NCBI GenBank assembly: GCA_032358255.1
Contig: JAULBX010000004.1
Location: 62,001-126,000 of the forward strand
From: Heterotrichella gracilis
Taxonomy: Eukaryota; Sar; Xanthophyceae; Tribonematales; Xanthonemataceae
Reading direction: 5' to 3'
DNA length: 64,000 nucleotides
The notes below the pieces were generated by a model. That model searched no databases and was not told the DNA's origin. It saw only the letters and a program-made list of their open reading frames with translations. A program made the position numbers and the translations under genes. Below, piece after piece: positions 26,289 to 64,000 of the stretch. Positions within the stretch are counted from its first letter, which is position 1; every line of letters starts with the position of its first letter.

Positions 26289-29200
26289 ATGTCTGTGCCC
26301 TACGACAGCCCCGACTGCCCCTGGTACCCCACCCGTACCGAGGGTGTGGCGGCCTGCGGCGGAGAGTGCGGCTACGTCAACGCATTCGGCATCACCGAAT
26401 ACGATTGCCAGTACGTGCCCTACCCCACCTGCCTCACACCCTTACGCCTGCTGCAGTGCGTGGCGCTGATGTTAACCAGCCTGCCTTTTTCACTGTTTGT
26501 ATGCCCACAAGCTGGTATTGCCCTGACTGCTTGTCTGCCCAACTGCAACCCTGCAAGTAGCAACCCTTCCCTCCTGTTCTACCAGCGTTGACCCCTCTTT
26601 GTCCACCACAGGGAGTCCTTCTTCGGCAGCAGCCATCCCCTGGCCACCGCCTGGGGCTACGCCATCGTGGTTGGCTTCGGTATCTTCTTCTCCATCGTCA
26701 CCTCCATCATCATCTACCTGGACCACCACTATGGTGGCTCACCAGACACCTCCGAGCAGTTCAACACCGCTGGACGCTCCCTGAAGACCGGCCTCGTGTC
26801 CTGCCACATTGTGTCGCAGTGGACATGGGCCGCTACCCTGCTGCAGTCCTCTAACGTGGCCTACCAGTATGGTGTCACGGGACCCTTCTGGTATGCCTCG
26901 GGAGCCACCATCCAGATCCTGCTGTTTGGAATCCTGGCGGTGCAGGTGCGGGGAGGGGCTGGGAGGAGTGATACCTGAAACCCTACGGAGGGGTTTAGTA
27001 GGGCCGGTGCCCGTCTGCCTGGTGTGTGCAGTGTTGTGAAAGCGCGCGCACCTAGCACCATGTTTACTGTCTGCCACAGTGCCCCGCTCGCAGTGTTGTG
27101 ATTTTGTGCACTCACTGGATCCAGACTGCTCCTTGCCACAGTTGCTGCCACACCGCCGCCCCTCTCCAAGTGCTGACCCAACCCTTTTCTCCCCCTTGCA
27201 GATCAAGCGCAAGGCCCCCTCCGCCCACACTGTGGGTGAGATCATCCTCGCGCGTTGGGGCGCAACCGTCCACAAGGTGTTCCTTGTGTTCCTCTTCGCA
27301 ACCAACGTCATCGTCACATCTATGCTCCTGCTGGGAGGCTCCGCTGTGATGGCTGCCCTGACCGGCATGAATGTGTACGCCGCCGCCTTCCTCATTCCCC
27401 TGGGAGTTGCCACCTACACCTTCCACGGAGGCCTCAAGGCCACCGTGCTGGCCGCCTACATCCACACCGCCTTCATCTTCATTGTGCTGTGCATCTTCGT
27501 GTACCAGGTGCGTTTAGGGTTTAGGGTTTTGGAGCCAGGGTCTTAGGCCTGAAACCTTACTCCCTTACATCCTGGCCCTGTGGCCGCTGAAACCCTAACA
27601 ACGTAGGGCCAATCCAATGAGGTCACATGGCTGTGCAGCCCTCGCGCCTTGCTGTGCCACGCGCCCCCTGCCCGCATCCACATGCGCTTTGCGTTGATGG
27701 CATCTACTTGGACACAGCATCTTGAGTTATTGCATTCAAAAAGTGCGCCATGGTTCCCTCACCCATGTGGCTCACATTGTGCCCTCTCCCCTGCAGGTGT
27801 ACGTGACCAACGCCCTGCTTGGCTCCCCCGCCACTGTGTGGGAGCACCTCACCCTCATCGCCACCCCCGGCTACTTCCCAGTGCCAGACAACAAGGGCGG
27901 CTCCTACATGACCATGTTCTCAAAGGGTGGCTTCATCTTCGGAATCATCAACGTGGTCGGCAACTTCGGGACCGTGTTTGTGGACCAGACCTACTGGCAG
28001 GTGCAGGCAAAACCCTAGACAGAAACCCTAACATCTAACAGGTTGCGCTGGAACTGGCTGCTGTAATTGGGGGTCCTGGCTGCCCCACAGAGGAAAAGCT
28101 GACTTGCTGGAATTGCTCCTACTGACCATTGTGCGCCAGCCAGCTCAACCAGCATGCGCCCTCATTGTCCACCGAAAAACCCTAACGTGTGGTTCCCTGC
28201 TCGCCCTCAGGGTGCCATCGCCGCCAAGCCCTCCTCCTCATACAAGGGCTACATCCTGGGCGGGCTCCTGTGGTTCACCATCCCCTTCGCACTGGCAACC
28301 TCCCTGGGTCTCGGCTCCCGCGCCCTGGACCTGCCCGTCACCCCATCCGAGGCCGGATCGGTGCGCGGCAAACCCCAAACCCTAAACACACACCATGTTC
28401 TTGAAGCCTGCTGGCGCTCTCACCATGCTTGCTTCACCGGCGGTGGTGCCAACATGCTTGTACCTGTGGATCGCATCGGTGAGCCCACCACCTGTACACT
28501 GCCAACCAAGGAACACACGCTTGCCGCCGCAGCCACCTGCACCCCCTCCCTGACCCTCCTCCCCTCCCCACCCCACAGGGTCTGGTCCCCCCAGCCACCG
28601 CCACCGCCCTCCTGGGATCCGGCGGCGCCGTGCTCATTGTGATTATGCTGTTCATGGCGGTCACATCCGCCGGATCCGCTGAGATGATTGCCGTCTCCTC
28701 CCTAATTGCCTATGACGTGTACCGCACCTACATCAACCCAGAGGCCAAGGGCAAGCAGATCATTACTGTTTCCCGCATTGCCATCGTGATCTATGCGGTG
28801 CTGATGGGCGTTTTTGCGACGGTGCTGAACGAGCTGGGCGTGTCCCTGGGCTGGGTGTACCTGATGATGGGGATTGTGATCGGCTCCGCCGTCATCCCCA
28901 TCTACCTGTGCCTCACATGGTCCAAGGCCTCCGGCACCGGCGCCATCCTGGGTGCTTTCATTGGACAGGTGAGCCTGCAATCTTCCTGCACACAGAATGC
29001 CTTGTAACTTATTGGTGATGAATTTCACATTGCATGTGTGTGTGTAGCCCGTGTTGCGCGCATGCTTCTGCACCTACAGGACTGCCAGTTGGGTCCATGC
29101 TTTGTGTTTTTCCAATCCATGTGTGCAGTTAGCTGACCCAAACTTTTCCTCCCTTTTTGCAGGCCGCCGCTGTCACCACCTGGTTGGTGTACGCCCAGGT

Positions 29201-30026
29201 TGCCTATGGCGCCATCAACCTGACCACCACCGGCAAGGACTACCCCATGCTTGCGGGTAACCTGGTGGCCATCCTGCTGTCTGGCTTCATCTGCATCTCC
29301 TACTCCCTCATGTACCCACAGGTGAGGCGGGAAAGTGTTAGTTTTGGTGATGTTTTCCAGTCGTAATGTGGGAGTAAGTGCATTGCCTGATCATTTGAGT
29401 GCAGAGACACAAAGCTGCATGCAAGGCAGGCAGAAACCAGTAAGTGCAAATTACTTTGATCTCAGTTCCAAGTGTGGGGCAGGAAAGCTGCCTTTGTGCG
29501 TGGTCATGCACATTGCATCCATGTACAACATCACATCGCTCACGCCCGCTGGCGCCACCACAGCCAATCCCCCTCCTGAACCCTCCCCACCCTTTCCCCT
29601 TCCCCTTCCCCTCCCCCACAGAACTACGACTGGAAGTCCATGCGCGAGATCCCCAACATCGAGCAGGACGGCACCGACACCCTGCCCGAGGAGGGCGAGG
29701 ACTCCCCCGAGGCCATGGACAAGGCCTACACCATCATGCTGTGGGTGGGCGCCGGCCTCACACTGCTCCTGGTGGTGGCCTGGCCCCTGCTCACCCTGCC
29801 AGCTGGCGTGTTCAGCAAGGGCTACTTCACCTTCTGGGTGTCCATCTCCATCGCGTGGGGCACCATCGCCTCGATCATCGGCATCGGCCTGCCCCTGTTC
29901 GAGGGCCGCCACACCCTGTGGTCGGTCATCTCCAACGTGGCCAAGTGCGCGCCATCCATGGCCAACACTGCTGCAGCAGACAAGGCGGTGGCAGCCGAGA
30001 AGGCGGACAAGGCAGCGGAGGTGTAA
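26289..30026 (+). CDS. DUR3: DUR3 urea/H+ symporter (sodium:solute symporter family)
   Basis: This gene encodes high-affinity urea uptake across the plasma membrane. Eight exons close to 689 residues, matching the family's usual length of about 690: 26289-26410, 26612-26945, 27202-27507, 27797-28000, 28211-28360, 28579-28968, 29163-29321, 29622-30026. About fourteen to fifteen hydrophobic helices are visible. Characteristic DUR3 stretches include [20 protein letters not shown] (about residues 85-104), [30 protein letters not shown] and [20 protein letters not shown]. The N-terminus is cysteine-containing and the C-terminus is hydrophilic Ala/Lys-rich. In other algae and plants DUR3 is induced by nitrogen limitation; nothing in the sequence proves that here. 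Several introns begin with telomere-like motifs. Confidence 0.95.
27512..27530. repeat. Telomere-like TTTAGGG tract just after a DUR3 donor site
   Basis: Two and a half TTTAGGG units begin five bases after the splice donor of DUR3 exon 3. Inverse-orientation tracts follow at about 27588-27600, 28010-28037 and 28369-28387 in later introns of the same gene. Confidence 0.85.
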
Positions 30027-49419: not shown

Positions 49420-51426
49420 ATGTCGCGGCTGTACATTGCAGCAGACCCCCTCGGGAAAGAGCTCAAGGATGGCATTGTGGCCTCCTTGCTGCCTGACCTG
49501 CTTCCACCTGGCACCGAGATAGTGGACCTGGGCACGTACGACAAGTACTATGAGGCTGGGCTGGAGGTGGGGCGGCGGGTGGAGGGGTCAGCCAAGGAGG
49601 GAGGGCCCGACAGGGGCCTGCTTGTGTGTGGCACTGGCATGGTGGGTGTGGGGACAGGGGCTGGTTGTAAATTCCGTGACAGGCAAATACTGCCATATAT
49701 TGTACTGGGAATGGAACATTATGTACCAGGGTAACCCAGGACTCTGCACAGTTGCACTGGGACAGTCCACCATTCACCACCCACTCACCCACCCCCCACT
49801 TACCCCCTCACTCACCCTACCTAAGGGTGCAGTCGCTAAAACCCTAGTGCCTGCCTTGCCCTGCAGGGCATGGCCATCACCGCCAACAAGTTCCCGCACG
49901 TGTTTGCCGGGGTCGCGGAGAACGTGGCCGCCGCCCGTAACTGCCGCGCCATCAACAACGCCAACGTGCTTGCGCTGGGGGGGCAGGTCACCAACCAGGA
50001 GCAGGCTGGGGATATCCTGCAGGCCTGGCTGGGCACGCAGTTCACATCCGGCTATGATGAATACAAGGTGGAGAGCATGCTTGAATTCATATACAATTAT
50101 CATATAAAGTTTACAATTTACAATTTACAAGTCTTCATGGCAGTTTTACACCCATTACAGCTACAAGAAAATAATTTAATGCAAACACGGGCTACTAAGG
50201 ACTTACAAAAAACAAGCACCATTACCATGTGGCATTATGCACAGTGGTGTGCATGGCGGATGCGCATGCTGTGAGCAGCCATTGGGTACATTGCCTTGCA
50301 ATCAGCATCTGCCCCTGCAATGCACAGGGCATCATGCCACGCACAGCTGCATCGCCACATTGTGCAGCCATACTTTTGCATGTATGTTGGCGTTCATGTT
50401 GCAGGCCAACCCCTGCATGCATCACTGTGATGCTCCCTGCAGGACTTTCTGGAGACGTCTATGCACGAGATCCCATCCATGGTTGAGCAGGCGGTGACTG
50501 CCGCTGCCACCTCCGCCACCATCTTGGGCCAGGTGGCGGGCGGCAGGACACCCATCGTGCTGGATGCCTCGGCGGTGGCTGCACAAGCGGGGACTGCGGA
50601 GGAGCCCGCTGGGGATGCGGAAACGGGTCCCAGGTTCAAGTTTGTGGATGCGGGGAGCAGCGGTCACTTTGTGCCAGTTCCTGGCCTGGGAAGTGACAAG
50701 TGCCTGTGGTGCGTGCGCTGGCCTGCATGCTGATTATATTCACGTATCCTGCCTATGTTTACCCAGCTATTATAGGTCCAATGTCACTGCACTGGGACGT
50801 GACAAGTGCCAGTGGTGAGTGTGCTGACCAGCATGCTGGTCCATGCTGACGCTGCATCATGATCGGTTCAATATGTGCATGCATACATATGCGTTTCACA
50901 TGGGCATTCCATGTGGCCATTTTGTGTGGGTCTGCAAGCAGGCCCTCTAGGGTGTCACACAAAGTGGCATGCCATTTCTGTGCCATACAAAGTAGGTGCG
51001 GTGTGCATAATTCCCTGTCAAGGGTGCACACACATGCACGACAGCACCTAGCCAGGCGATTAATTGTCATCCAATTCACGATCCGCCCAGCAACGCTCAT
51101 ACCTTCACAGGTGCGTCCTCCAGGAGAACCATCCTGGCAGGGGCGTGCGGGCGGTGGTGCGATTCCCCGCCGGGGCAGTGGAGCCCGCCCACCACCACAC
51201 CCATGGCCACGAGCTGCTTGTCCTCAAGGGGCACAAAACAGTGGAGAATCACACCATGGGGAGGAAAATTGAGCTGCGCCCAGGCGGCTACCTGTACACC
51301 CCTGCACAGCACGTGCACGAGGTGAACTACCATGAAGACACCGAGTATTATTTTGCCTCGGACGGCTTCTTCGACATGTTTTGGGATGATGCTGGGCGCC
51401 CGGGGGTGGAGCTGCAAGGGGAGTAA
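49420..51426 (+). CDS. RpiB-cupin fusion (DRT102-type sugar-phosphate isomerase family)
   Basis: Four exons close to 334 residues: 49420-49641, 49867-50067, 50443-50708, 51111-51426. Residues 1 to about 145 form an RpiB/LacAB domain: MSRLYIAADPLGKELKD, then LLVCGTGMGMAITANKFP (the CGTG-x-G-x-x-x-x-AN substrate loop, Cys about 70), ARNCRAINNANVLALGGQ, then the DILQAWLGTQF helix. Residues about 230-334 form a cupin with PAHHHTHGHELLVLKG and PGGYLYTPAQHVHEVNY, the metal-binding histidine clusters. The same fusion is known in plants as DRT102, a DNA-damage-toleration protein whose chemistry is uncertain. A ghost copy of the exon 3 donor lies in intron 3 (see repeats). TGTAA occurs about 300 bases past the stop, near 51723. 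Confidence 0.9.
50683..50838 (+). repeat. Exon-edge duplication at a donor site, RpiB-cupin gene
   Basis: Copy 1 (50683-50732) contains the real exon 3 end (GTGACAAGTGCCTGTG then GTGCGTG). Copy 2 (50791-50838) repeats it with substitutions (GTGACAAGTGCCAGTG then GTGAGTG) and the following GCATGCTG. The offset is about 107 bases. Confidence 0.85.
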
Positions 51427-52603
51427 GGGCATGGTAGGGATACCAAAACAGGGCTTGAAGAGGACGTGCAGGAGAATGGGCGCATGAGAAAGGCGTGGCG
51501 GTGGAGTGGAGAACCGGCATTGTTAATTGGCAGTTACTTGGCAACTCATTTGCAAGTGTGCCTGCCTGTGTTTTGCTTTGATAAACCGATATTTGACCGC
51601 TATGACTCTTTGCTAGGGCGCACAGTGTGTTTGGTGAGCTTGCCTGTATTTTGTATTCAGTTTTTTCGGTGAAGTCCAGATATTGGAAATCACCATGAAT
51701 TACCATTTCGAGCTGACAGCATTGTAATAAATTAGAGAACCGCTGCTGAAAGGCGACTTATCTGCGGTCCACAAGGCAGTCTGTGGGTAGATAACGGTCA
51801 TTTTTCCTGCAAATCCAGCTAGGGTGCAATGCATGCATGCATGTGCTTACTTGCAAATTGCTCGAGACAGCCGCAAATCTGGCTTGACGATCGATTACTC
51901 GTATGTATTGTGTCTCCTTATTGGTGTACTAACTTGGGCGCAACCTCGCCAAGCGCATATTCTTCCAACATGTGGCTAAACGCCCTGAGGTAGTTAGCCA
52001 AGGAGGATCCTTGAAGCCCACACACCACACTAGGGTCTGGCCACCAGCCGACTGCCAGGGTGCTTCCAGAGGGGTGGTGCCACCATGCCCCATAGCCCGC
52101 CCAATGCCTCCACCACAACCATCGCCACCGCCACCGCCACTGCCACTCCCACTGCCATCGTCACCACCGCCAGTGCTGCCCCAGCCTCAGCCGCCCAAGT
52201 GGACCACCCTTCTCCCAGCCCCACCACCTCAACCACAGCAGCTATGAAAGCCACAGTTATCACCAAGGCCCCTAGCACCACCGCCACCGCCAGCGACGCC
52301 CCAAGCCCCGGCCCAAGCGCCAAGGCGGACCACCCTTCTTCCAGTCCCACCACCGCCACCATCGCCGCCACCGCCAGTGCCGCCGCCGCCATAGCCACGC
52401 AACTGGCCCACCTTTCCACCGCTGCCACCACCGCCGGTGATTCCCCAACCCCAGCCACCCACATAGACCCCCCTCCTCCCAGGCCAACCACCTGCGGTCA
52501 CCAACCCAGCCCCAGCCCCACCCCCTGCCTACCACCCCAACCACCACCAGCAGACCACGACACCCAGGAGGCTGAAATACCCTTGGCCGAAGACCCTTGG
52601 CAG
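51427..52603. other. Intergenic and low-complexity 5' region of the MYND gene
   Basis: The left half is the RpiB-cupin 3' region. From 52085 an ATG frame runs through a Thr/Ala/Pro low-complexity tract (CCACCG units) with imperfect about 120-base repeats encoding VDHPSPSPTT and ADHPSSSPTT. It could be the disordered N-terminus of the MYND protein: a donor at 52437 would join in phase to the acceptor before 52604. It could equally be non-coding. Confidence 0.4.
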
Positions 52604-55600
52604 AGCTCTACGAGGACGAGGCACACCCGCTCACCCCGGAGCAAACGTACGCCCAGGTGGCCAAGATATGCGCCAGCCTGCGCAACTTGGCGGTGGTGGA
52701 TGAGAGCTTTGCAGCTGTGGCGGATGAGGCCCCCGAGGCGCTGTGTGCGCCCTGGCCCAGCTGGAAGGTGAGAGCGGGGTGGAAACCCTCAATAGGGCTT
52801 TGGGCGGGGTGAAACCCTTGCTAGGGCTGTGTGCGCCATGGCCCAGGGGGCGAGTAGGTGGAAACCCTCAGTAGGGTAAGGGCGAGGGCAAAGGTCGTCG
52901 GCAGCAAGCAGGCCTTCAGCCTAAGTCAATTGAGACCTTGCACCCTAAACCCTGGACGATACCCCCCGGACCCTAACTCGTAGAACCCTCTCCTTGCAGC
53001 TCACTCCAGCTGTTGACCTGCTCCCACCCAACCCTGGACCCTAACCCTAAAACCCTACACTTTGAAATCCTAAGCCCTTGTGTGTGTTCTTCCCTTGCAG
53101 CCCACTCCAGCCGGCGACCTGCTCCCCAAGACCAGTCTGTGCGTGCGGGGCGTCTCTCCGGCCATGGAGCTGAGTGAAGAGGCGCTGCACACGGTGGCCC
53201 AGGCGGCGCTGAGGTTACAGCTGTTCAAGAAGGTGCGCACACTGTTACGATCAGAATTGCCAATCAAATCATGACACTGACAAATGATGACAGTTACAAT
53301 TACAATCAAGTTCAGCTGTTCAAGGTGTGTACACAGCCACACTCAAAACTGCCAATCAATCATGACGCTGAAAATTATAATGCCAGCAACGGTTTATGAT
53401 AAAGTACACTGCTACAATCACATTTCAATCAAACAAAGCATGGAGATCGAGACAATAATATAATATATTTAGGATCCAGTACAGCTTTTCATAAAGGTGC
53501 GCACACAGCTAGAGGTGGTTAGTCGGTTAGTTACTTACATACATTCCAGTAGTACAGCCACATACAATAAATACAGGTAGAGTAGTTAGTGCGTAGCAGA
53601 TATTTGCTAACCAGTGTTGCCGCTTACTGCACTTCCAGTGTGGCAGCTGGGTGGGCGACCCTAAACCCTAAACTAGTAACCCTAATCCTTAAACCCCAGG
53701 TATCGACCACCCACAGGGCAATGAGGGGCGGCAGATGCGGCGGGCAGCCCTCAACCCTAACCCTAACCCAAAACCCTGCAATACCTAAACCCTAACTTCC
53801 GCCCACAGGATGAGGAGGGGCGGCAGATGCGGCGGGTGGTGGCCAGCAAGCTTGCATCGGGGATGTTGCCTGGCTCAGGTGCCTGCGGGGGGTGCTGCCC
53901 CATCTTACGCCAGCGGAATGGATGGCGCTACCCAGTAGCGAGATTGTGGCTGCGCTTGTGTGGTGGCTGGGGGAGCGCTCCCGTGGGAGGCCGGTGGATG
54001 GGGATGGGGCAGGGGGGTTGGCGGTCGACGGCGGTAAGTTGCGCATTCTGTGGGGGAAGTTGGAATATCCACGTTACTGTGCATGTTATGCCATTCTGCA
54101 TTGTGATGTGGGTATGAAGCATGTGTTAATTAGTTTTTCGGCGTGTGTCGCATGTGTGTCCTTCGCACTGTTCAAGGTGTTGTATGCCTGCGAATGCATG
54201 CTTGCGTGTGTGGGCTATGCATGTGCAATCTGTACATCAGCCACTTGTCCTCGCCCTGCAAAACCCTGTGTAGGGTCCCCGCAGCCGCCACCATAAACCC
54301 TATTGTACCCTACCGCACCTTGAAACCCCCGCCTGTTGCCTGGTGCAGCTTTCCTCCAGGAAGCCGTGAGCTTCTTCACTTCATTTGTGGACTCCCCCCT
54401 CGCCGCGCGCGCCTGTGGTACAACGGCTGCGTGCGTGTGTTTGCACACATGTTCCTGGAGATCACCAGCCAGGAGCCCATCCCCCACCAACCGCCAAGGG
54501 GGGATAACACCCTGTCCACCCCGCACCAAGGGGACGGTGGCACCCTGGCACCTCCACAGCAACAAGAAGGGGATGAAACCCCCACCCCCCTGCAAACCAA
54601 CCACCCCTTGCTGTGGGACGTCTCCTGGGTGCTTGAGGCATGCACCAAGATCCGTGAGTGGGTATTCATCCTCGGATTGAGGCCACCATTCTGCATGCAC
54701 GTGCACTTGCGCTTGTGCCGCTTCTGGCGCATGCAGTAGCGGACCATGCATGCTCCCGGGTAGCATTCATCCACACGTAACACCTACCGTACTCACCGCC
54801 ACCGCGCGTTAGGATTTACATTGTCCAGGGTATCGAGATTGTAACGATGTGGTGATGGTGGCGGCAAGCGCGTCAAAATTTTCTGCAAAGAAAGTATGTA
54901 CCTCAAGCAGCACCCCTAAACCCTAAACCCTAAACCCTGCCAACCGCGCCCCTTTTCTCACCCCCTCCACACCCCCTGCCTCAGCCCTAAATCCTACACT
55001 CTAAACCCTAAACCCCTTCACATCCCCTGCCTCCAGCCCCGCCCCGCGGCAGCAGACATTGGTGGGTCGAGGAGCTGTACTGCAGTGAGGGTGCACAGAT
55101 AGCCTTCGCCGCCAAGTGGAGGGAGGGGGTGCAGGGGGAGCACATCAAAAAAGTGGCCAGGTGGGGAGGGATCGGGCGTGGCAGGGTGCAGCCCTTGGAA
55201 ATGCATTACATCTTCTGTGGGTTACCCAGTCACATTTACTGACTACCCATCCCAAATCCCCCCCCTTCTTCCCATTACATTTGTCCCATGCAGGTGGTCC
55301 CTCCTAGGATGGGGTCATGGACCGGTCCCTACAGTGTAATGAAGCATTGTACAGGTTCCATTTCCTTTCTACCCCCATTGCATCCCATTGCATCCCATCC
55401 CATTACATCTCATGGCCATGTCCATATATCCCATTGCATTCCATCCCACTACATTCCACTACATCTTATTGCATCCCTTTCCGTTCCATCTCATGTCATG
55501 CCATGTCATGCCATGTCATGTCCCATGCAGGTGGCTCCTCCAGGAGGGGGTCATAAATCCATCCCCTTTACCTTTCAACCCCGTTGCATCCCAACCATTT

Positions 55601-58600
55601 ACATTTCACCCCCATTGCGTCCCATTCCATGACATCTCATGCTCATCTCATCATTATTTATAAATTAAAAAAATTCAAGTAAAAAAAGTATATTTATTAC
55701 CATGCCATGCCATGCCATGTCGATCCCACGCAGGTGGCTCTTCCAGGAGGGGGTCATGGAGCGATGCGCGCACCTGTTGGTGGAAGATACCACCGACCAC
55801 ATCATCGTGTGGATGCACCTCATCACAAATCTGATCGTGCTCTTGCCAGGCAAGGCCCGACACTCCTCGCCACCTGCCCTGCTGCTGCATCATCATTTAC
55901 AGGCCTGCTGTTGGCTCTACATGATCACAACCCTGCTATTTGATCAACTTGATTGCAAGTTCAATCGATGCAAATTGCACACAAATTGCATCATGCAATC
56001 GCACACCCGCTGATCGTAACCCTGATCAAACTCTTTCCATAAAGAAAGGGCCCGCACCCTCCTGGCCAACCACCCCCGCATGGTACCCACTCTACTGCAA
56101 TTGGAGGCCCCACCGGGAGCTGTTAATACCCCCTATGAATGCGCCCTCCTGCTTCTGAGGCATGCTGTGGATGGGGAGGTTTTGCCTGGCTGGGGGTTGG
56201 TTGGGCAGCCAGAGGTGTGGGAGTTCCTGATGCAGGTGAGAGGGCATGTGCTGGGGGTTCCAAAACTGTATGGGAATGTATAGCTATTTCAAGTCATATA
56301 ACGTATGTGTGGCAGGCATGCCTGCATTCCAAGGTTGTATATCGTGTTTCAAGTGATTGGTTGTTCGAATGCACCTCTCCTCTAGTGGAACACATACCAG
56401 TAGGGAAAGTTTGCGGTGAAAATCGGTCCTTCCTGTCGCGTTTACCGCCCACAACATCTTAGGGACCAGCGGTGCAAAAACCTTAACCCCTTGTGTACCC
56501 TCTGTGCAGAAAGGGAAGATTTCGGCGATGCACGCCCAGGTGACCACCCTAGGGGACACCACCAGGGGAGGGGATGAGCTGCTGAGGCACCAGGCGGGGC
56601 TGATTGCAGCCATCGCAGCCAGCTTTGAACGAACCGCGGACAGGTGCGTGGTCTAAACCCTGAACCCTAAACCTTAAACCCCAACCCTAACCAGACGAGG
56701 CGCATGGCGGCCACAGCCGCCAGCTCAAAACCCAAAACCCTGCGCAACCCCACGCAGGGCCTCCCAAGCCATCCATGCCCGGCCGGGCCAGATGCCAGTC
56801 CTCAAAGAGGAGCTGATGTTATTCCAAGGCCTGGCCAGCGTCTGCATAGTCCCCATGGGGACCTGGCTCCAGACCCAGGTGTTGTTGATGATTGGGTACT
56901 CAATGGGCCAGGCGAGCCTGGTGTACAACGACGTGTGCTTTGCCGATGACGACGTGGGTGTTGCACTTGCTGCAGCCATCCAGATGTGGGAGGCGGGGCA
57001 GGTGGACAGGGGGGGGTTGGAGGTGGGTGGTGTGGGTGGTGGGGAGGAGGGGAGGGAAGGGTGTGTGTATGTTCCAGCTTGGTAAGGACAGGGGGCAACT
57101 GAGGAGCGCCCGCATGGGGGTTTGGCAGTCTCGCTGGCGGGTGGGGCGGTGGGGTGTGGGTGGTGGGCATGTGCTGCTGTGGTCACAGGTTGGACATGGA
57201 GGCGTGTGTGACAATTGCTAATGTCGCATCGCTGGAAGCGATGAACTATCCTCAATGTTAACATTGCAGCCCGCTGCCATGGGGGGTGTAGGAGGATACT
57301 CACTTGCTCTTCTACATACCCTTGCCGTTGCTCTTTGGGTCCACATGGCAATGGCCAACCCCCCCCCCCTCCCCTTCCCCTCTGCAGCAGAGTGTGTTTG
57401 CTCTTCTGGGCAAGGTATGGCAGGGCTTGTCACTGGAGCGACTGCGGCCTAAGCAAAACCCTAACCAAGACCCTAACCACCACCCGGACACCGACACGCA
57501 CCAGTCAGTGGATGTGCCCTGGCAGGTGATGGGGCAGGTGGCCTCCACCATCCAGGCATCCTTCCACTGCCACATGGCGGGCCACGACTGCGCCACCAGC
57601 TGCCTGTTCAAGCACTCGCCAAGGCCATGTCTCAAGGTGGGTGCGCAGGTACTTTATAGTATTTTCTGGGTATTTTATGGTCGTCTCTGGGTACGTTTTT
57701 TGTCTTTTCTGGGTGTCCTGGGAAGTTTCCTGGGTACGTTGTACGTTGTTCAAGCACTCACCCATGCCATGCCTCAAGGTGGGTGTGCAGGACTTTCTGG
57801 GTACAGTACTATACAGGGTCTTGTGGGTACTTCACAGTACTATACAGGGTCTTGTGGGTACTTCACACTGCTGTCTACCTTTGTCCCTGCTTATCCCCAG
57901 TTGCATGAAAACCCACATCCTGAGGCAGACTTTGCAAATCATTTTTTTGGTATTTGAGCACTCCCCCAACCCCCTTCCTTCCCCCTCCCCAGGCCCACGC
58001 CCTCCCCTTTGCGCGCATGCTGTACCGCTGCGGCATGTACCCTGCACTGGCCCACCTGCTGGGTATGCCCTACCGCCAGGGGCAGTGCCAGGTGGCGGCG
58101 TGCCTGGCTCGCATGATGGATGTGGCAAGTGAGTGCCAGCTGGCAGCCAGGCTGTACCACGACACAGATGTGGTGGCGCAGGTGTACAGGTGGGGTGTAG
58201 ACTCTAGGGTTCCTTTTAGGGTTTGGGCCTTTGAGTGCCAGCTGGCAGCCAGGCTTACCACGACAGGGATGTGGTGGCGCAGGTGTACAGGTGGGGTTTG
58301 AGGGTTCAGGGTTCAGGTTAGGGTTTGGTGCAGGTGCGCAGGTGCTGCTGATTGGGAATACATGAGTACTTGGAATTCCATGCGTTCCAGCAGTACAGCC
58401 AGTGGATGCAAATGTGTCAATAGCTAGTGAACAGGATGCCTAGCAGTATGCGTTCCTGTAGTCCAGGCGGATCAGTAACAGCCCCTTGCACATGTCAAAC
58501 CTTCCAAATCTGTCTCGGCACTGTTTCTTACGAGTATTAACTCCCTACTCACCCCCGCACCCCCACCCCCCACCCAGGCACCTCCTGTTGAACCCCACCC

Positions 58601-60721
58601 AGTGGAGCTGTGAGAAAGCGGCACTGTGGAGCAGCTTGGAGGGGCTGTGTCGCAGCGTGGTGGTCACAGGTGGGGGGGAGGATCGTGTGGTGGTGACTGA
58701 TGGGGGGTGGGATGTGGTGCGTGATCCCGTGGCGCCATGGAGCATGTGGGGTGGGGGATGCAACATTCTTCATGCCATCAGCATATTAGGTCCACCCCTC
58801 CCAGCCCGCTTGACCGCGATTCTTGAACCCTTGGCTAGGGTTGCCATGACACCCGCCAACCCTTGATTAGGGTTGTCCTGGCACCCGCCAACCCTTGGCT
58901 AGGGTTGCCCCGCGCCCTGAAGCTAGGGTTCCCCTTCCCAATGCAGGCAAGCACCGTGCCTCCCGCGCTGCCAGGTGGCGCCTGCGCACACTGGTGGATG
59001 ACAGCCTGGGGCCAGGGGAGGTCAGGCTGGACAGGACACAGGGGGTGGTGCGGGTGGGCCAAGACCTGGAGCCAATGGTGGGTTGGTGGGTGGTGGGTGG
59101 TGGGTGGTGTGGGAAGTCCTTATGGAGGTGAATTTCGTTTCTGATTTTTGTGCTGTTTTCTTATTATGTAACCCCGTCGTAATCCTGGTTCTCATTGTAG
59201 TTCTGAACATCAAGTTGTGTCATCACCCTGATTTCATTCTTGATTGGGCCAAAGCTTCTGAATCCTGTGCCTGGTATCTTGATCAAATTGGCGCCCGGCC
59301 CCATGGTCGTTGACAGACCAGCTGCGAGTCCAACCCTAAACCCTAATCACAATCCACGACTGTGCCTCCCCCCACAGGCGCAGGTCCTGCACTGCCTGCT
59401 GCCGTGCCTGGCTCACAAGGCCAAACCCTAACCCCAAACCCTAAACCCTACACTCAATCTGTTGCCCCCCGCAGGCCCACGTCCTGCACTGCTTGCTGCC
59501 GCGCCTGGCCCACAAGGCCAAGGGGTTGGAATGTATGACCGACAGAGGGGAGTACATGGCACTCACCCAGGCGCAGCTTCAGCTTGAGGGCCTGACATCG
59601 ATGCAGGCAGGCACCCTCATTGCACTGCCAACCACGTGCGTCGTGTGCGTGGGGTACAACTCTGTCCCCCCTGATATGCTCCCCCTGGTGCTCTAGCTGG
59701 AGGAGATGGCTGCAAGGGATGTGGCGGGCAGCAAGGGGAAGGTGGGCGCAGCAACCTAAAACCTAAACCCTAGACCTCAAACCACACTGTCCTACAGCCG
59801 TAAATCCTCTCTTTGTTCTGCAGTTGAAGCAGGAGGCTCCCCATGGTCCCTGGCAACATATTAATCAACAGCACAATCATATGCCCTAGTTGCTAGACCC
59901 TAAACCCTCCCCCATTGTGCAGTTGAAGCAGGAGTGGCTCCCCCTGGTCCCCGACAACATCTCTTTCCTCCTCTTCCGCCCCCTTGCCGAGGACAACCCA
60001 CGCGCCAACCCAGGGGTGCTATTATACAAGAACCACGCCAGCAAGGGCGCAGATGCGGGCAAAGTTTCGGAAAAGGCCAATGCAAAGCTTGCTGCCATGC
60101 GCTCGGATGGGTTCTTCTCGTATATGTATGTGTGTGGGTTTGTGCCCGCGCTGGTGTGTGTGGTGGAGGATGGCACGGAGTTGGTGGCGTATGCGTTCAC
60201 TGAGCAAATTGGCGGCCTGGGCCCCTCGCCAGAGGTCAGCCAGCAAGGTGAGAGTTTAGGATTTAGGGTTTTGGGTTGTGAAGGGTGCTGCCATGTGAAA
60301 AGGCTGCTCTGTGTGCCCTGGACAAGCCTCGGCTTAAAGCAAATAGAAGGTACCTTTACGTTGTGAGTCTGTGGGCTCGAGTTGTCAACCATTTGTGGTA
60401 GTCAGATTTTGTGAATACCGTATGCTTTACCTGTTGTGTAGGAGACCATGGAGCGACAGGGGGTGCGCTAAATCCCACCCAGGAGGAGGACGCCGCAATG
60501 GCGAGGCCAATCCAGGCTCCAGCAAATCGGCTGCCAAGGAGTGCCGCATGTGTGGGGTCAGGCCCAGGGAGATGCCCCAGGGGAGCAAGCTGATGGGGTG
60601 CAGCGGGTGCGGGGGGGTGCGCTACTGCGGCAGGCTGTGCCAGCAGGCGCACTGGAAGGAGCACAAGGGGGAGTGCAGGGAGTTGCGGGCAAGGGCGAGG
60701 CGTGGGGCAGGGCCTGCCTAG
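52604..60721 (+). CDS. Large multi-exon protein with C-terminal MYND zinc finger
   Basis: Exons supported by splice sites and phase include 52604-52767, 53101-53232, 55734-about 55852, 56510-56643, 56758-57001, 57388-57636, 57993-58189, 58947-59077, 59697-59741, 59923-60247 and 60483-60721. Others, ending or starting near 53809, 54348, 55020-55160, 56046-56235, 57188, 58578 and 59475, are approximate. The C-terminus is a complete MYND finger: C-R-M-C ... C-S-G-C-G-G-V-R-Y-C-G-R-L-C-Q-Q-A-H-W-K-E-H-K-G-E-C. The remainder is mostly helical, with Leu/Ala-rich segments (AHALPFARMLYRCGMYPALA, MYVCGFVPALVCVVEDG), and I do not recognise another domain. MYND fingers mediate protein-protein contacts. 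The frame appears to shift at two homopolymer-like spots (near 53888 and 54408), so the gene may be damaged, carry unrecognised introns, or reflect sequencing errors. The 5' end is uncertain. Confidence 0.6.
52741..52880 (+). repeat. Exon-edge duplication at donor (MYND exon ending 52767)
   Basis: CTGTGTGCGCCCTGGCCCAG (from 52741), the donor and the following GGTGGAAACCCTC are repeated from 52827 as CTGTGTGCGCCATGGCCCAG and GGTGGAAACCCTC. The offset is 86 bases. Confidence 0.85.
52991..53130 (+). repeat. Exon-edge duplication at acceptor (MYND exon 53101)
   Basis: The ghost at 52991-53030 and the real edge at 53092-53130 share TTGCAG, then CxCACTCCAGC, then GACCTGCTCCC. They are 101 bases apart, with ACCCTAACCCTAAAACCCTA between them. 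Confidence 0.88.
53218..53512 (+). repeat. Exon-edge duplication at donor, three copies (MYND exon ending 53232)
   Basis: The real edge CAGCTGTTCAAGAAGGTGCG (53218) is followed by a shared intron start with CCAATCAAATCATGACACTG. A second copy begins at 53313 and a shorter third at 53481 (CAGCTTTTCATAAAGGTGCG). The offsets are 95 and about 168 bases. Confidence 0.85.
53709..53836 (+). repeat. Exon-edge duplication at acceptor (MYND exon 53809)
   Basis: The ghost (53709-53745) and the real edge (53801-53836) share CCCACAGG, then GAGGGGCGGCAGATGCGGCG. The spacer is CAACCCTAACCCTAACCC followed by more telomere-like units. The offset is about 92 bases. Confidence 0.88.
54914..54938. repeat. Telomere-like CCCTAAA tract in MYND intron
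   Basis: This is the longest perfect run seen here, three and a half CCCTAAA units. A second group lies at about 54998-55013, shortly before the next exon. Confidence 0.85.
55283..55759 (+). repeat. Triple acceptor duplication with intervening CATCCC minisatellite
   Basis: The motif CCCATGCAG/CCCACGCAG followed by GTGGCTCCTCCAGGAGGGGG (or a close variant) and GTCAT occurs at 55283, 55520 and 55723. Only the last continues in frame (RWLFQEGVMERC). Between the copies is a degenerate CATCCCATT/CATGCCATGT minisatellite (55370-55720). Confidence 0.85.
55850..56075 (+). repeat. Probable exon-edge duplication, GGCCCGCACCCTCCTGGCC
   Basis: AAGGCCCGACACTCCTCGCC (about 55851) resembles AGGGCCCGCACCCTCCTGGC (about 56046), the start of a downstream exon. 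The offset is about 195 bases. Similarity is lower than at the other sites. Confidence 0.5.
56602..56726 (+). repeat. Exon-edge duplication before donor 56643
   Basis: ATTGCAGCCATCGCAGCCAG (exon, 56602) and ATGGCGGCCACAGCCGCCAG (intron, 56704) are diverged copies about 101 bases apart. The tract between them is a run of AACCCTAAACCTTAAACCCC. Confidence 0.6.
57605..57791 (+). repeat. Exon-edge duplication at donor (MYND exon ending 57636)
   Basis: TGTTCAAGCACTCGCC, then GCCATGTCTCAAGGTGGGTG (57605-57649), recurs at 57747-57791 with GCCATGCCTCAAGGTGGGTG. The offset is 142 bases. The spacer consists of diverged GGGTATTTT/GGGTACGTT units. Confidence 0.85.
57805..57866 (+). repeat. Perfect 31-base tandem duplication in intron
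   Basis: AGTACTATACAGGGTCTTGT plus the following 11 bases (57805-57835) is repeated exactly and directly at 57836-57866, which suggests a recent event. Confidence 0.92.
58131..58297 (+). repeat. Exon-edge duplication at donor (MYND exon ending 58189)
   Basis: The copy at 58131-58197 encodes ECQLAARLYHDTDVVAQVYR up to the donor. The copy at 58232-58297 is nearly identical but has a two-base deletion that breaks the frame. The offset is 101 bases; TAGGGTTCCTTTTAGGGTTT lies between them. Confidence 0.92.
58828..58910. repeat. Tandem CAACCCTTGGCTAGGGTTG units
   Basis: About 40-base units containing the inverted pair ACCCTTG...TAGGGTTG recur three times, separated by ACACCCGCCA or GCACCCGCCA. 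They lie in the intron before exon 58947. Confidence 0.8.
59372..59522 (+). repeat. Exon-edge duplication at acceptor (MYND exon about 59475)
   Basis: The ghost at 59372-59424 and the real edge at about 59468-59522 share GTCCTGCACTGC, then CTGCCG, then GCACCTGGC-like sequence and CACAAGGCCAA. The offset is about 96 bases, with AAACCCTAACCCCAAACCCT between. Confidence 0.9.
59819..59960 (+). repeat. Exon-edge duplication at acceptor (MYND exon 59923)
   Basis: TGCAGTTGAAGCAGGAG followed by GGCTCCCC and TGGTCCC is present at 59819 (ghost) and 59920 (real). The offset is 101 bases; GACCCTAAACCCT lies between. Confidence 0.9.
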
Positions 60722-60811
60722 GGGTTAGGGTTAGGGCTAGGGTTTAGGGTCTACTGGCTGGGGAGTGCAGGGCGCTGCGGGCAAGGCGAGGCGTAGGGCA
60801 GGGCCTGCCTA
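60669..60811 (+). repeat. Duplication of the MYND gene 3' end, past the stop codon
   Basis: GGGAGTGCAGGG, GCGGGCAAGG, GCGAGGCGTGGGGCAGGGCC and TGCCTA (60669-60720) recur at 60760-60811. The offset is 91 bases. The spacer is GGTTAGGGTTAGGGCTAGGG and more, and a further TTTAGGG tract follows the second copy. Confidence 0.92.
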
Positions 60812-62422
60812 AGGGTTTAGGGTCAGGACTAGGGTCTAGGGTTTACTGCACTGCTGCTTCGCAGGCTGGGGAGGAGGCAGCTGACTAGCATTTTAGCGGG
60901 TATATATTGTTAGAGAAGTGCGTCTCCACAGCAATACGACTAGGACTTGCTGGCTCTTTGACTGACAGATATAATAGGCCACGGTTTTGCGGTAGCCCAT
61001 TATAGCTAGGCCAAGTGAATGGACCTCAACACCTGTAGACATGTGGATTGAGGCTTGCTGGGGTTGCTGAACGTCTTACAATGGTAGCAGTGGTAGCAAC
61101 CAGAAACATAATGCACTGACATTTTCAGTAAATTTAGTTATCTACGGCGAATTTGTGTGAAAAAGGACACTCATTTTTGTTCAGGCCTGACTTCACTTCA
61201 TGATAGTTGCTCCATTGATGATGCCATCAGTGATGGTTCACTTGTGCCTTATGGCTGGCAGGGCAAACAACAGTGTATATCAGCAGTACAAGCACGTCTT
61301 TGCTCCTGGAAACCAACCAGCCCGGAGTTGTTCTATCCGTCCACCATCGGCATCGCACAGCATTCAAAAGTTCTTCTCTTTCGTCCAGGCGTCACTGCTC
61401 AACGGACGTATTGCTGCGTTTTTATTGTTTTAACCTTGTGTAACCCACGCTGCTGCTAGCCACCCCTGGTGAGCAGCGCTGTAGCTACGCTGGCAGCGCA
61501 TTGCTACGTCAGCACTAGACCTCGACACCTCAAAGTGTGGCTACACGGTCGTATGTCGACGTTGATTCTGTGAGTGGCTCGTGACGTGGCTTGTTCTTTG
61601 TACTGCACACTTGGGTACCTGTTGATGCTGTTTTAAAGTCGGCACCCCATCTGCTACAAAATGCATAGCGCGCTGAGCGGATGTTATGCCCCTATGCTTT
61701 TTGTTCGAGTTGCTGCGAGGTGTTTTCTGTACCATGGCCCTGGTCTTGTGTAGGTAGATAATTCGTACAGTGCCCACACACCAGCTCCTATTGCCTATAG
61801 CCCAGGCACTTGTACTTATATGCATGCAGTGTATAAGCACATTTGCTGATGTGCAAGTACATGGCGCTCCCACGGCCAAGGCATACCTCACAGCTCTGTC
61901 ACTGTGAAAGCCTCTCAAAAACTGGGTTGTTATCCACAGGTGAGAGCAGGGCAAGGCAACCTGTCCCAGGGAGGCACCCAACAGGTACCCAGCATGTCGC
62001 ACAGCCGCAACTACCGCTCCCGGATGGTGTCCTGCCTGGTCGCCATAGCGGTCATACACCGCTGGTCCTTGGAGAAACTGAAGAAGAAGGCAGTGCGCCC
62101 CTGACAGCTGCACTCCCCAGCCTACAACCTGCCAGATATCGTTCAGCAAGGCCTCCGCCAGTGCAGTGGCTATTTCCACCTAGCACACTCGCCAGACGTA
62201 CTGTACAACACCCTGCCCACCTGGCACAGGCTCCCACTCGTTCACTCCATCCACCACCAGCGACAGTACCAGCAACACCAGGCAGCACAGCAGCACCACA
62301 CTCTCCTCCCCCCTCCTCCCCCCTCCACCCGCCACCACCAGCACCAGCAGTCACCACCCTCCCCTCTACCACCCCCCACCCACCTGCCCTCCAAACCCTT
62401 GTGGAGGGTTTAGAAAGCCTCC
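60722..62422. other. Intergenic between MYND and UXT genes
   Basis: The duplicated MYND 3' end is followed by about 1.6 kb with no recognised gene. Frames at 61541-62179 (minus) and around 61995-62104 (plus) are open but match no family I know. The last 250 bases before the UXT ATG are CCACCAGCACC-type low-complexity sequence. Confidence 0.4.
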
Positions 62423-63472
62423 ATGGCGGCCCGCCCCCTGGCCGCCGCTGAGCGCCAGGCCAAGGTGGAGGTGTATGAGCGCTTCCTGGCCACCAAGCTG
62501 GAAAAAGACCTGGCGGCAGCAGCGGAGCAGGTGGCGCGGTTGGAGCAGGAGGCGGCCAACTACTCGCAGCTGCAGGACAATGTGCGCAAGCTGCAGCAGG
62601 TGGGTGGGAGCTCCACACTGAAACCCTAGACCTTGAACGCTGCACCCTAAAGCGTGGCTGGAGCAGGAGGTGTTCACTCGCAGCTCCAGGGCAGTGTGCG
62701 CAAACTGCAGCAGGTGGGTGGCGGATCATTTCTTTCAGTGAAAACGGAGCTTGTAACGCACATTCGGGTGTGCAAATTGAAAAAAATCAAATTCAAAAAG
62801 TGCAAATTCAAGGTACTGCATAGCAATGCACCAGGGTAGAGGTATACAATATACACCAGGTCGAGTTGCGGGTGATGTCTATGCTGGATTACAGTCTACT
62901 TATAGACCCTTGCCCATCGCCTGGCACCTTCTCTCCTTGCAGGTCAATGCCACCGAGCTGCGCCTGATGCACCCCATGGGACCCGACATCATGTGCCCCG
63001 CCCACGTGCCGGATGCGCGGCGCCTGCACGTGCATGTGGGGCTGGGCTTCCATGTGGAGTGCGGCTGGGACGAGGCCATACAGGTGGGTAGGCTGGTAGG
63101 GACTTTGAGTCTTGCTGTGGAAATCATGTTGTTCCTTAGCTGCAATTGGGTGCGTGATGCGCTTTGCATGCCTGCGGAGGGGCACGAATTGCTCTGTCCA
63201 GGGCTTGCCGGTTGTTACCGACTTGAAAATCCTACCGCGTTCAAAAAAATATATTTACCTCGTAGTGTGCTTTAATTTGATTAAATTTTATCGTTCAAAG
63301 GGACATACGTTTTAATACACAATCCGTATATTCTGCCATCCAGGTGGCATCCCTGCGGCAGCGCCACATGGAGCGCCAGCTGGCCAATGCGCAGCAGGTT
63401 CTTGCTAAGGTGCGCGCAAACGTGAGGCTGGTGTCGGAGGGGATCAGGGAGCTGCGCCAGGTGGCGGCGTGA
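62423..63472 (+). CDS. UXT: UXT homologue, prefoldin-alpha-like protein
   Basis: Three exons close to 148 residues, the usual UXT length (about 150-157): 62423-62599, 62943-63083, 63344-63472. The first helix (KVEVYERFLATKLEKDLAAA) and coiled coil precede a beta-hairpin region (MHPMGPDIMCPAHVPDARRL, then VHVGLGFHVECGWDEAI). A second helix follows (QLANAQQVLAKVRANVRLVS, then EGIRELRQ). This helix-hairpin-helix plan and the position-specific match to human UXT (VALGYGFFLELT...EGLRELQ) support the call. UXT acts in the R2TP/prefoldin-like co-chaperone complex and in transcription in animals. Decayed copies of the exon 1 donor edge and of the stop region lie nearby. Confidence 0.82.
62540..62724 (+). 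repeat. Exon-edge duplication at donor (UXT exon 1)
   Basis: TGGAGCAGGAGG, CTCGCAGCTGCAGG and TGTGCGCAAGCTGCAGCAGG followed by TGGGTGG (62540-62610) recur at 62655-62724 with small changes. The offset is about 113 bases; ACCCTAGACC and CACCCTAAAG lie between. Confidence 0.92.
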
Positions 63473-63578
63473 CAGGGGGCGCATCGCAGGATCTGGGAGC
63501 TGGGGGTGGCATGCGCACCATCTTGTGACAGCTGGCGCAGCGGCTGGCGCTCCACTATGCGCCAGGTGGCGTTGTGAC
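63454..63578 (+). repeat. Duplication of the UXT stop-codon region
   Basis: GCGCCAGGTGGCGGCGTGAC (63454-63473, including the TGA) recurs as GCGCCAGGTGGCGTTGTGAC (63559-63578). The offset is 105 bases. Further weaker relatives (GACAGCTGGCGCAG) continue to about 63710. Confidence 0.75.
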
Positions 63579-64000
63579 GGCTGGCAGCCGTTGGGATTGG
63601 CAAACTCACCATTAGTGACAGCGGGCGCGGCTGCTTGTGCTGACATGGGCTGGTACAGGCTGCAGCCTTGGCCGCCATGGTCACCATCATGCGACAGCTG
63701 GCGCAGGTGGGGAGGCTGCCAAGCACAACATCATGCAGACCAGCTGCGGCTGGGTGTGCGGGCGCAACATGCAGCCGCACGGCCATGCAACAGCAGTGCA
63801 CGCGCCCCAGGTCAGGCGGGTGGTTGCGGCGGATGCAGGCGGGTTGGGGGCAGGCGGATGCAGGCGGTCCGCAGCCGCGCCCAGCGCCCCACACCCTAGG
63901 GTGTGGTAATGCACTCATGGGCGCTCCTTGACCACACTTCCGGACAGCTGGTCATGTGTCAAGGGCAAAGGAGGTCTGTGAGATCCAGGAGCGCAAGCCC
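63473..64000. other. Right edge, no gene recognised
   Basis: Repetitive CAGCTGGCGCAG/GGATGCAGGCGG-type sequence occupies this end. A gene may begin beyond the window; nothing within it can be assigned. Confidence 0.4.

Follow-up and report, generated by a model that had tools for sequence, protein, structure and literature searches.

Duplicated exon edges and their association with telomere repeats in the xanthophyte alga Heterotrichella gracilis

In a 64,000-nucleotide stretch of the genome of the xanthophyte alga Heterotrichella gracilis (GenBank assembly GCA_032358255.1, contig JAULBX010000004.1, positions 62,001 to 126,000; here called the window), exon edges in three adjacent genes are present a second time in the flanking intron or 3' region. 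What process writes these copies, and why do they lie at exon edges? We call such a direct repeat of an exon edge an echo, its intron-side or outer copy a ghost, and a run of telomere repeats a telomere run. The echo-bearing genes, identified with Pfam, are an RpiB-cupin gene, a MYND-finger gene, and a UXT/prefoldin gene. Echoes were detected in the window by gapped self-alignment at offsets of 40 to 300 and a score of at least 34 bits, with telomere motifs and simple repeats masked. This yielded 16 direct-repeat pairs, all within 50686-63706, and six Markov-1 shuffles of the window gave 0 pairs even with the threshold lowered to 26 bits. The original prediction had described about fifteen places in the three genes and little of the kind in the first 50 kb. 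Inspection resolved the places into 13 edges (11 splice sites and 2 stop codons) with 15 extra copies (Table 1), and the first 50 kb held 0 pairs at ≥34 bits; at ≥28 bits, 2 pairs were found there, versus 20 in the last 14 kb. The predicted offsets were also recovered: 106, 86, 101, 95, 92, 203/237, 142, 97, 99, and 118 by self-alignment, 102 at 58130 and 92 at 60668 with a tandem repeat finder, and 105 at 63453. A predicted splice site was spanned by 13 of the 16 pairs, whereas shifted positions averaged 25%. Of those 13, three depend on edges that are in doubt (52162, within coding sequence of low complexity, and 63501 and 63510, in exons called past the UXT stop codon), leaving 10 firm ones.

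The survey was then widened within the assembly, which comprises 68,512,230 bases in 903 contigs. The main sample was 302,434 bases from 30 sources, namely, the window, L009, and L011 to L038 (L001 to L008 and L010 were left out). L009 and L011 to L022 had been chosen for nearness to the window or by MYND match, and the 16 stretches L023 to L038 were picked blind. Gene models came from a hidden Markov model gene finder trained on the same 302,434 bases and are predictions without RNA support; the gene finder took some ghosts for exons, which adds noise to the edge counts. In the blind stretches, 25 of 43 pairs spanned a predicted splice site, compared to 27% for shifted positions (P = 0.002, 500 shifts); in all sources except the window, the figure was 65 of 114 against 26%, with 0 of 500 shifts as high. 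The original prediction was to fall if exon edges showed no enrichment over shifted positions; over 302 kb the enrichment was present, and the claim of recurrent local duplication at exon edges is supported by it. Exon interiors wholly contained only 5 of the 114 pairs outside the window. The observation is confirmed as real and specific, and it extends beyond the window.

Under the same rules, direct pairs outnumbered inverted ones by 130 to 4 in the 302 kb. Two of the four inverted pairs are two nested inverted repeats (~88 and ~50 bases) at L011:4051-4379. Echo offsets were 60 to 300 bases, most commonly 80 to 120. In the blind set at ≥40 bits, the number of pairs per 90 nt of offset dropped from 23 (40 to 130) through 11, 6, 1, and 0.5 to 0 (600 to 900). 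The predicted fixed offset of about 100 bases therefore did not hold, since the distribution is broad (10th to 90th percentile, 82 to 227; n = 75). The blind sample held 43 pairs in 108 kb, with 0 to 14 per stretch, which extrapolates roughly to 27,000 pairs in the whole genome at very uneven density.

The anatomy of echoes was examined in 73 splice-edge echoes with at least 12 exon bases. The ghost kept GT in 39 of 42 donors and AG in 24 of 27 mappable acceptors (4 were unmapped), somewhat above the 32.5 and 20.2 expected from identity alone. With the splice dinucleotide retained in 63 of 69 mappable cases, the data bear out the suggestion that decoy splice sites are left behind. In the 36 pairs of at least 88% identity, the shared piece covered 14 to 71 nt of exon and 0 to 26 nt (median, 8) of intron.

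A feature absent from the original prediction is that the spacers between the copies often hold the alga's own telomere repeat, TTTAGGG. Arrays of six CCCTAAA units were detected on 16 contigs: those on 7 contigs run forward from within the first 140 bases; those on another 7 are in reverse orientation and have higher coordinates, possibly at right contig ends; and those on 2 (C346 and C640) run forward away from the start. The arrays at contig starts identify TTTAGGG as the telomere repeat. Telomere-like hexamers were densest in introns, at 16.6 per kb (compared to 2.5 after shuffling), with 6.7 per kb in intergenic sequence and 1.6 per kb in exons; within introns, they peaked 10 to 40 nt from either end. 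Their G-rich strand points outward from the exon, with 33 versus 13 per kb at 10 to 20 nt from donors and 36 versus 2 per kb at 20 to 30 nt from acceptors.

Telomere runs and echoes go together. When an edge with at least two telomere hexamers nearby was scored positive, positives made up 25/37 donors and 24/40 acceptors with echoes, compared to 73/362 and 56/359 without, an odds ratio of about 8 (within-locus permutation P of 0.0005 or less). Telomere-run density also predicted the number of echoes per 5-kb unit (Spearman 0.81, n = 59; blind units, 0.82, n = 21). From the cluster side, with 252 of 256 telomere clusters scored, 127 clusters lay no more than 60 nt from a splice site, and 42 of these had a flanking duplication, versus 19 of 995 random places. 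The corresponding counts elsewhere were 7/22 near a start or stop, 3/52 at 60 to 150 nt, 1/20 in intron interiors, and 4/31 in intergenic sequence.

The MYND family allowed the same edges to be compared across paralogs. It has several members, in the window (52085-60721) and on contigs C35 (where some are clustered), C431, C886, C794, C53, and C29. Edges that occurred at three or more places gave 80 edge instances, a few of them being ghost edges: 15 had a telomere run and an echo, 18 a telomere run only, 1 an echo only, and 46 neither. An echo was therefore present at 1 of 47 telomere-free edges versus 15 of 33 edges with telomere motifs, and the same edge differed in echo state from paralog to paralog. 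At a donor at ~80.2 kb on C35, the exon edge is followed by three units, each of 28 bases plus a 43-base copy of the edge, and then by intron; the 28-base element is four heptamers, some with 1 to 3 mismatches, and the last copy has no telomere run directly after it. A paralog at ~69.6 kb has the edge in single copy and is identical over 57 bases up to the insertion point, beyond which only a brief intron alignment was obtained. This is the one clear paralog pair with an insert-free related site. At one MYND acceptor, an echo was scored at 4 of 5 places, and some ghosts end, as judged by eye, at a common point; these ghosts may therefore predate the gene duplications. Separately, on the minus strand of L020 (C794:170001-180000), five successive copies of a MYND exon edge are separated by AAACCCTAG, with a run of N within the array; the same edge has two copies in a nearby paralog.

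Read outward from the exon, the unit may be described as an edge X, often a short telomere run T, a second copy X', and then the old intron. The account that we favor, to which we would give an even chance, is that staggered breaks recur near exon edges and are repaired by telomerase-type extension and fill-in of the overhangs, the product being kept where the splice site works. A staggered break at or near the exon edge would leave 3' overhangs tens of nucleotides long that span X; one overhang end would gain TTTAGGG repeats by telomerase, or would capture telomere sequence. Both overhangs would then be filled in, a reaction carried out by CST-Pol alpha at telomeres and at breaks, and the ends would be joined; fill-in duplication and telomere insertion would together give X-T-X'. 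Selection would purge scars inside exons, and scars spanning a splice site would persist since the outer copy still splices. X' would remain as a decaying decoy, and repeated rounds, with later amplification of T-X', would lengthen introns. In favor of this account are the predominance of direct over inverted pairs, the steep fall in pair number with offset, the enrichment at predicted splice sites in the blind stretches, the telomere repeats near splice sites and their link with echoes, the C35 array and its single-copy paralog, the excess of runs confined to the spacer, and the precedents for fill-in duplication and telomere insertion described below. The layout of the units, their bias toward exon edges, the telomere link, and the differing echo states of paralogs are observed; staggered breaks, telomerase, CST-Pol alpha, and selection as a filter are inferred. 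Of the mechanisms that the original prediction had offered, staggered-break repair is the best fit; intron gain suits only 1 of 414 introns. A broader proposal, in which telomere-end machinery (telomerase plus CST-type fill-in) would be the routine repair for staggered exon breaks, building introns genome-wide and occasionally a new one, is more doubtful, and we advance it tentatively.

Several observations weigh against repair with telomerase-type extension. Of the 73 edge echoes, 20 had a telomere run confined to the spacer and 6 had one confined to the region beyond the ghost (20 versus 6, P = 0.009), a contrast that itself favors the model; 31 had runs in both places and 16 in neither. The 22 echoes with fewer than two hexamers in the spacer mean that the run either is not required or decays, and the 31 with a run also past the ghost are what plain tandem duplication of a run-bearing edge would give. 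In the 36 pairs of ≥88% identity, the spacer-only and ghost-only counts were 11 and 3 (P = 0.057). Telomere runs without an echo are common, as at the 18 MYND edges, and telomere density in the spacer was unrelated to the identity of the copies (rho 0.03, n = 49). Read outward, spacer orientation was 22 G to 12 C at donors, which is not clearly off 1:1, and 19 to 1 at acceptors; we do not take orientation as strong support, because selection against AG just upstream of acceptors gives the same bias. The register of junctions with the telomere repeat was weak: after 2 of 15 junctions in which X itself ends in telomere repeat were dropped, the sum over 13 junctions was 19 versus 12.2 permuted (P = 0.022), and counts of at least 1 and at least 3 matching bases gave P values of 0.15 and 0.059. 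Finally, the favored model does not account for the intron-side limit of the copy (median, 8 nt). Exon-biased breaks truncated by selection would produce this pinning, and a splicing benefit of the telomere run might.

The strongest rival, which we consider somewhat unlikely, reverses the order of events: the telomere run would come first, as a selected splicing element, and this slippage- and G-quadruplex-prone sequence would then provoke ordinary duplication of the edge, with no role for telomerase. In this reading, CCCTAAC would serve as a branch point plus pyrimidine tract, and GGG runs near donors as enhancers. Consistent with this order, the runs lie at expected branch-point positions upstream of acceptors in a nearly fixed orientation (the 36 versus 2 per kb above), MYND edges with a run only are about as frequent as those with a run and an echo, echo-only edges are rare, and the run continues past both copies in 31 of 73 cases. 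On the other hand, the runs peak at donors too, where a branch point is not needed. The C35 array has runs between its copies and none directly after the last, and runs confined to the spacer exceed those confined to the region beyond the ghost. Moreover, donor G arrays and acceptor C arrays do not co-occur within introns.

Plain small tandem duplications arising everywhere, with exonic ones purged and exon-edge ones over-detected because one copy is conserved, are an improbable explanation. Selection on one copy makes a pair easier to detect, and the process is not confined to genes, as shown by the 4 of 31 intergenic telomere clusters and by 13 of 114 pairs lying wholly in intergenic sequence. 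Yet those 13 pairs, like the 11 of 114 wholly in introns, amount to about half of the 23% expected for each by shifting. The frequency of telomere runs at echo edges far exceeds that at other edges, and the young pairs (≥88% identity) are mostly exonic, with 14 to 71 nt on the exon side against 0 to 26 nt on the intron side.

A mobile element or introner inserting at exon edges with target duplication would explain the insertion-like layout with direct repeats on the flanks, and we regard it as very improbable. Introners and introner-like elements add sequence repeatedly to introns over a genome. Unlike them, the alga has, by eye, no insert family besides the telomere heptamer, which is all that the compared spacers have in common, and no fixed-length target duplication, since the duplicated exon side varies from 14 to 71 nt in the 36 pairs; existing introns are extended instead of new ones being made. 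An assembly artefact or collapsed haplotypes, which the 903 contigs and the run of N in the L020 array might bring to mind, are hardly credible given that the copies, spread over many contigs and concentrated at splice sites, differ by 0 to 28% and contain changes that break the frame.

Other candidates were tried and rejected. Telomere-run density as a clock is ruled out by its lack of correlation with copy identity. Pairing of donor TTTAGGG with acceptor CCCTAAA within an intron, and one-event fusion of two telomere-healed ends, both predict paired arrays, and the arrays were uncorrelated within introns (observed, 12; permuted within loci, 11.2; P = 0.45). Creation of new introns was also rejected as the main route: a donor and an acceptor in the same aligned repeat place were found in 1 of 414 introns, and any donor-acceptor similarity in 27 of 414. 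The one case is a 318-base minus-strand intron (L032:1252-1569) whose donor and acceptor lie in the same ~21-base direct repeat, CGTGCAG^GTGCTGCTC, a textbook sign that an intron arose by duplication; the intron also contains an echo and telomere repeats.

Individual loci illustrate how ghosts enter gene predictions. In an Argonaute gene (L009), echoes occur at both ends of one intron, and a ghost called coding by the gene finder contributes 12 residues that the PDB entries for Argonaute-10 and Argonaute-2 lack. The single UXT relative from a protein search has 148 residues, the length of the ghost-free UXT model. At L027:5502-5956, an exon and its acceptor occur in three copies called as a repeated protein stretch (YDVKIGQ), which may be an echo turned coding or a wrong gene call.

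The edges in the window are listed in Table 1. Minisatellites CATCCCATTG and TTTCTGGGTA replace telomere repeats in MYND echo spacers at 55284-55720 and 57640-57870. Elsewhere in the window, a DUR3-like urea symporter gene (26289-30026) contains 33 telomere motifs, yet no echo of at least 34 bits; its spliced protein shares 62% identity with proteins of Chlorella vulgaris and Micractinium and 87% with that of a closer relative, matches that would suggest a Chlorella-like green alga.

Table 1. Duplicated exon edges in the window (window coordinates)
Edge	Span	Strand	Real edge	Ghost	Spacer and remarks
RpiB-cupin donor	50686..50838	+	50686-50732, exon end 50708	50792-50838	Spacer without telomere motif
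MYND donor	52740..52876	+	52740-52797, exon end 52767	52826-52876	AAACCCT-type motifs; masked alignment covers 52740-52760 only
MYND acceptor	52992..53126	+	53093-53126, exon start 53101	52992-53025	CCCTAA repeats
MYND donor	53216..53506	+	53216-53288, exon end 53232	53313-53378, 53480-53506	
MYND acceptor	53707..53836	+	53799-53836, exon start 53809	53707-53744	CCCTAA repeats
MYND acceptor	55287..55757	+	55727-55757, exon start 55734	55287-55318, 55524-55554	CATCCCATTG-type minisatellite, no telomere motif
MYND donor	57605..57796	+	57605-57655, exon end 57636	57747-57796	TTTCTGGGTA-type repeats
MYND donor	58130..58328	+	Exon end 58189		Tandem pair, period 102; TAGGGTT motifs past both donors
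MYND acceptor	59368..59497	+	59465-59497, exon start 59475	59368-59400	CCCTAAA repeats
MYND acceptor	59816..59960	+	59915-59960, exon start 59923	59816-59859	CCCTAAACCCT
MYND stop codon	60668..60848	+	TAG 60719-60721		Tandem pair, period 92; TTAGGG repeats past both copies
UXT donor	62534..62714	+	62534-62600, exon end 62599	62652-62714	Two AACCCTA/ACCCTAAA motifs
UXT stop codon	63453..63578	+	TGA 63470-63472		Copies 63453-63473 and 63558-63578

Three known systems offer comparisons. The short interstitial telomeric sequences of mammals are put in place by the repair of double-strand breaks, and 6 of 130 rodent loci and 4 of 25 primate loci also show a duplicated target (PMC2246262). Like these sequences, the algal telomere runs are short internal runs of the organism's own telomere repeat that can be read as break-repair scars, sometimes with a target duplication. 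No splice-site bias is reported in the part of that source used here, whereas the algal runs are densest a short way into introns, and roughly one in three of the clusters within 60 nt of a splice site carries a flanking duplication. In the second system, CST-guided Pol alpha-primase fill-in of 3' overhangs at breaks produces small tandem duplications (PMC8355091). These resemble the algal copies in being direct and tens of nucleotides long, and staggered breaks and part of the telomere machinery are common to that system and the model proposed here. They differ in that the algal copies are usually separated by a spacer, and the part of the source used here describes neither telomere repeats nor an exon-edge preference. 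In the third, Daphnia neointrons contain internal direct repeats read as scars of repeated staggered breaks that lengthened the introns (PMC4202315), and the algal repeats, likewise intronic and direct, lend themselves to the same interpretation. The Daphnia repeats next to exons are 4 to 12 bases long and belong to new introns, with telomeres unmentioned in the part of the source used here; those of the alga cover 14 to 71 exon bases in introns that are mostly not new. An open-access literature search, covering titles and the starts of abstracts, returned no description of splice sites at which exon edges are duplicated alongside telomere repeats. Both small tandem duplications and the insertion of telomere repeats at breaks are already known; it is their combination at splice sites that was not met in that search.

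For annotators, the several ghosts called as exons by the gene finder are a caution. If the proposed account is true, the alga would carry many natural decoy splice sites with which the choices of the spliceosome could be tested, and telomere enzymes would be linked to gene structure. Altogether, a source of intron growth would then be observable in a living lineage.

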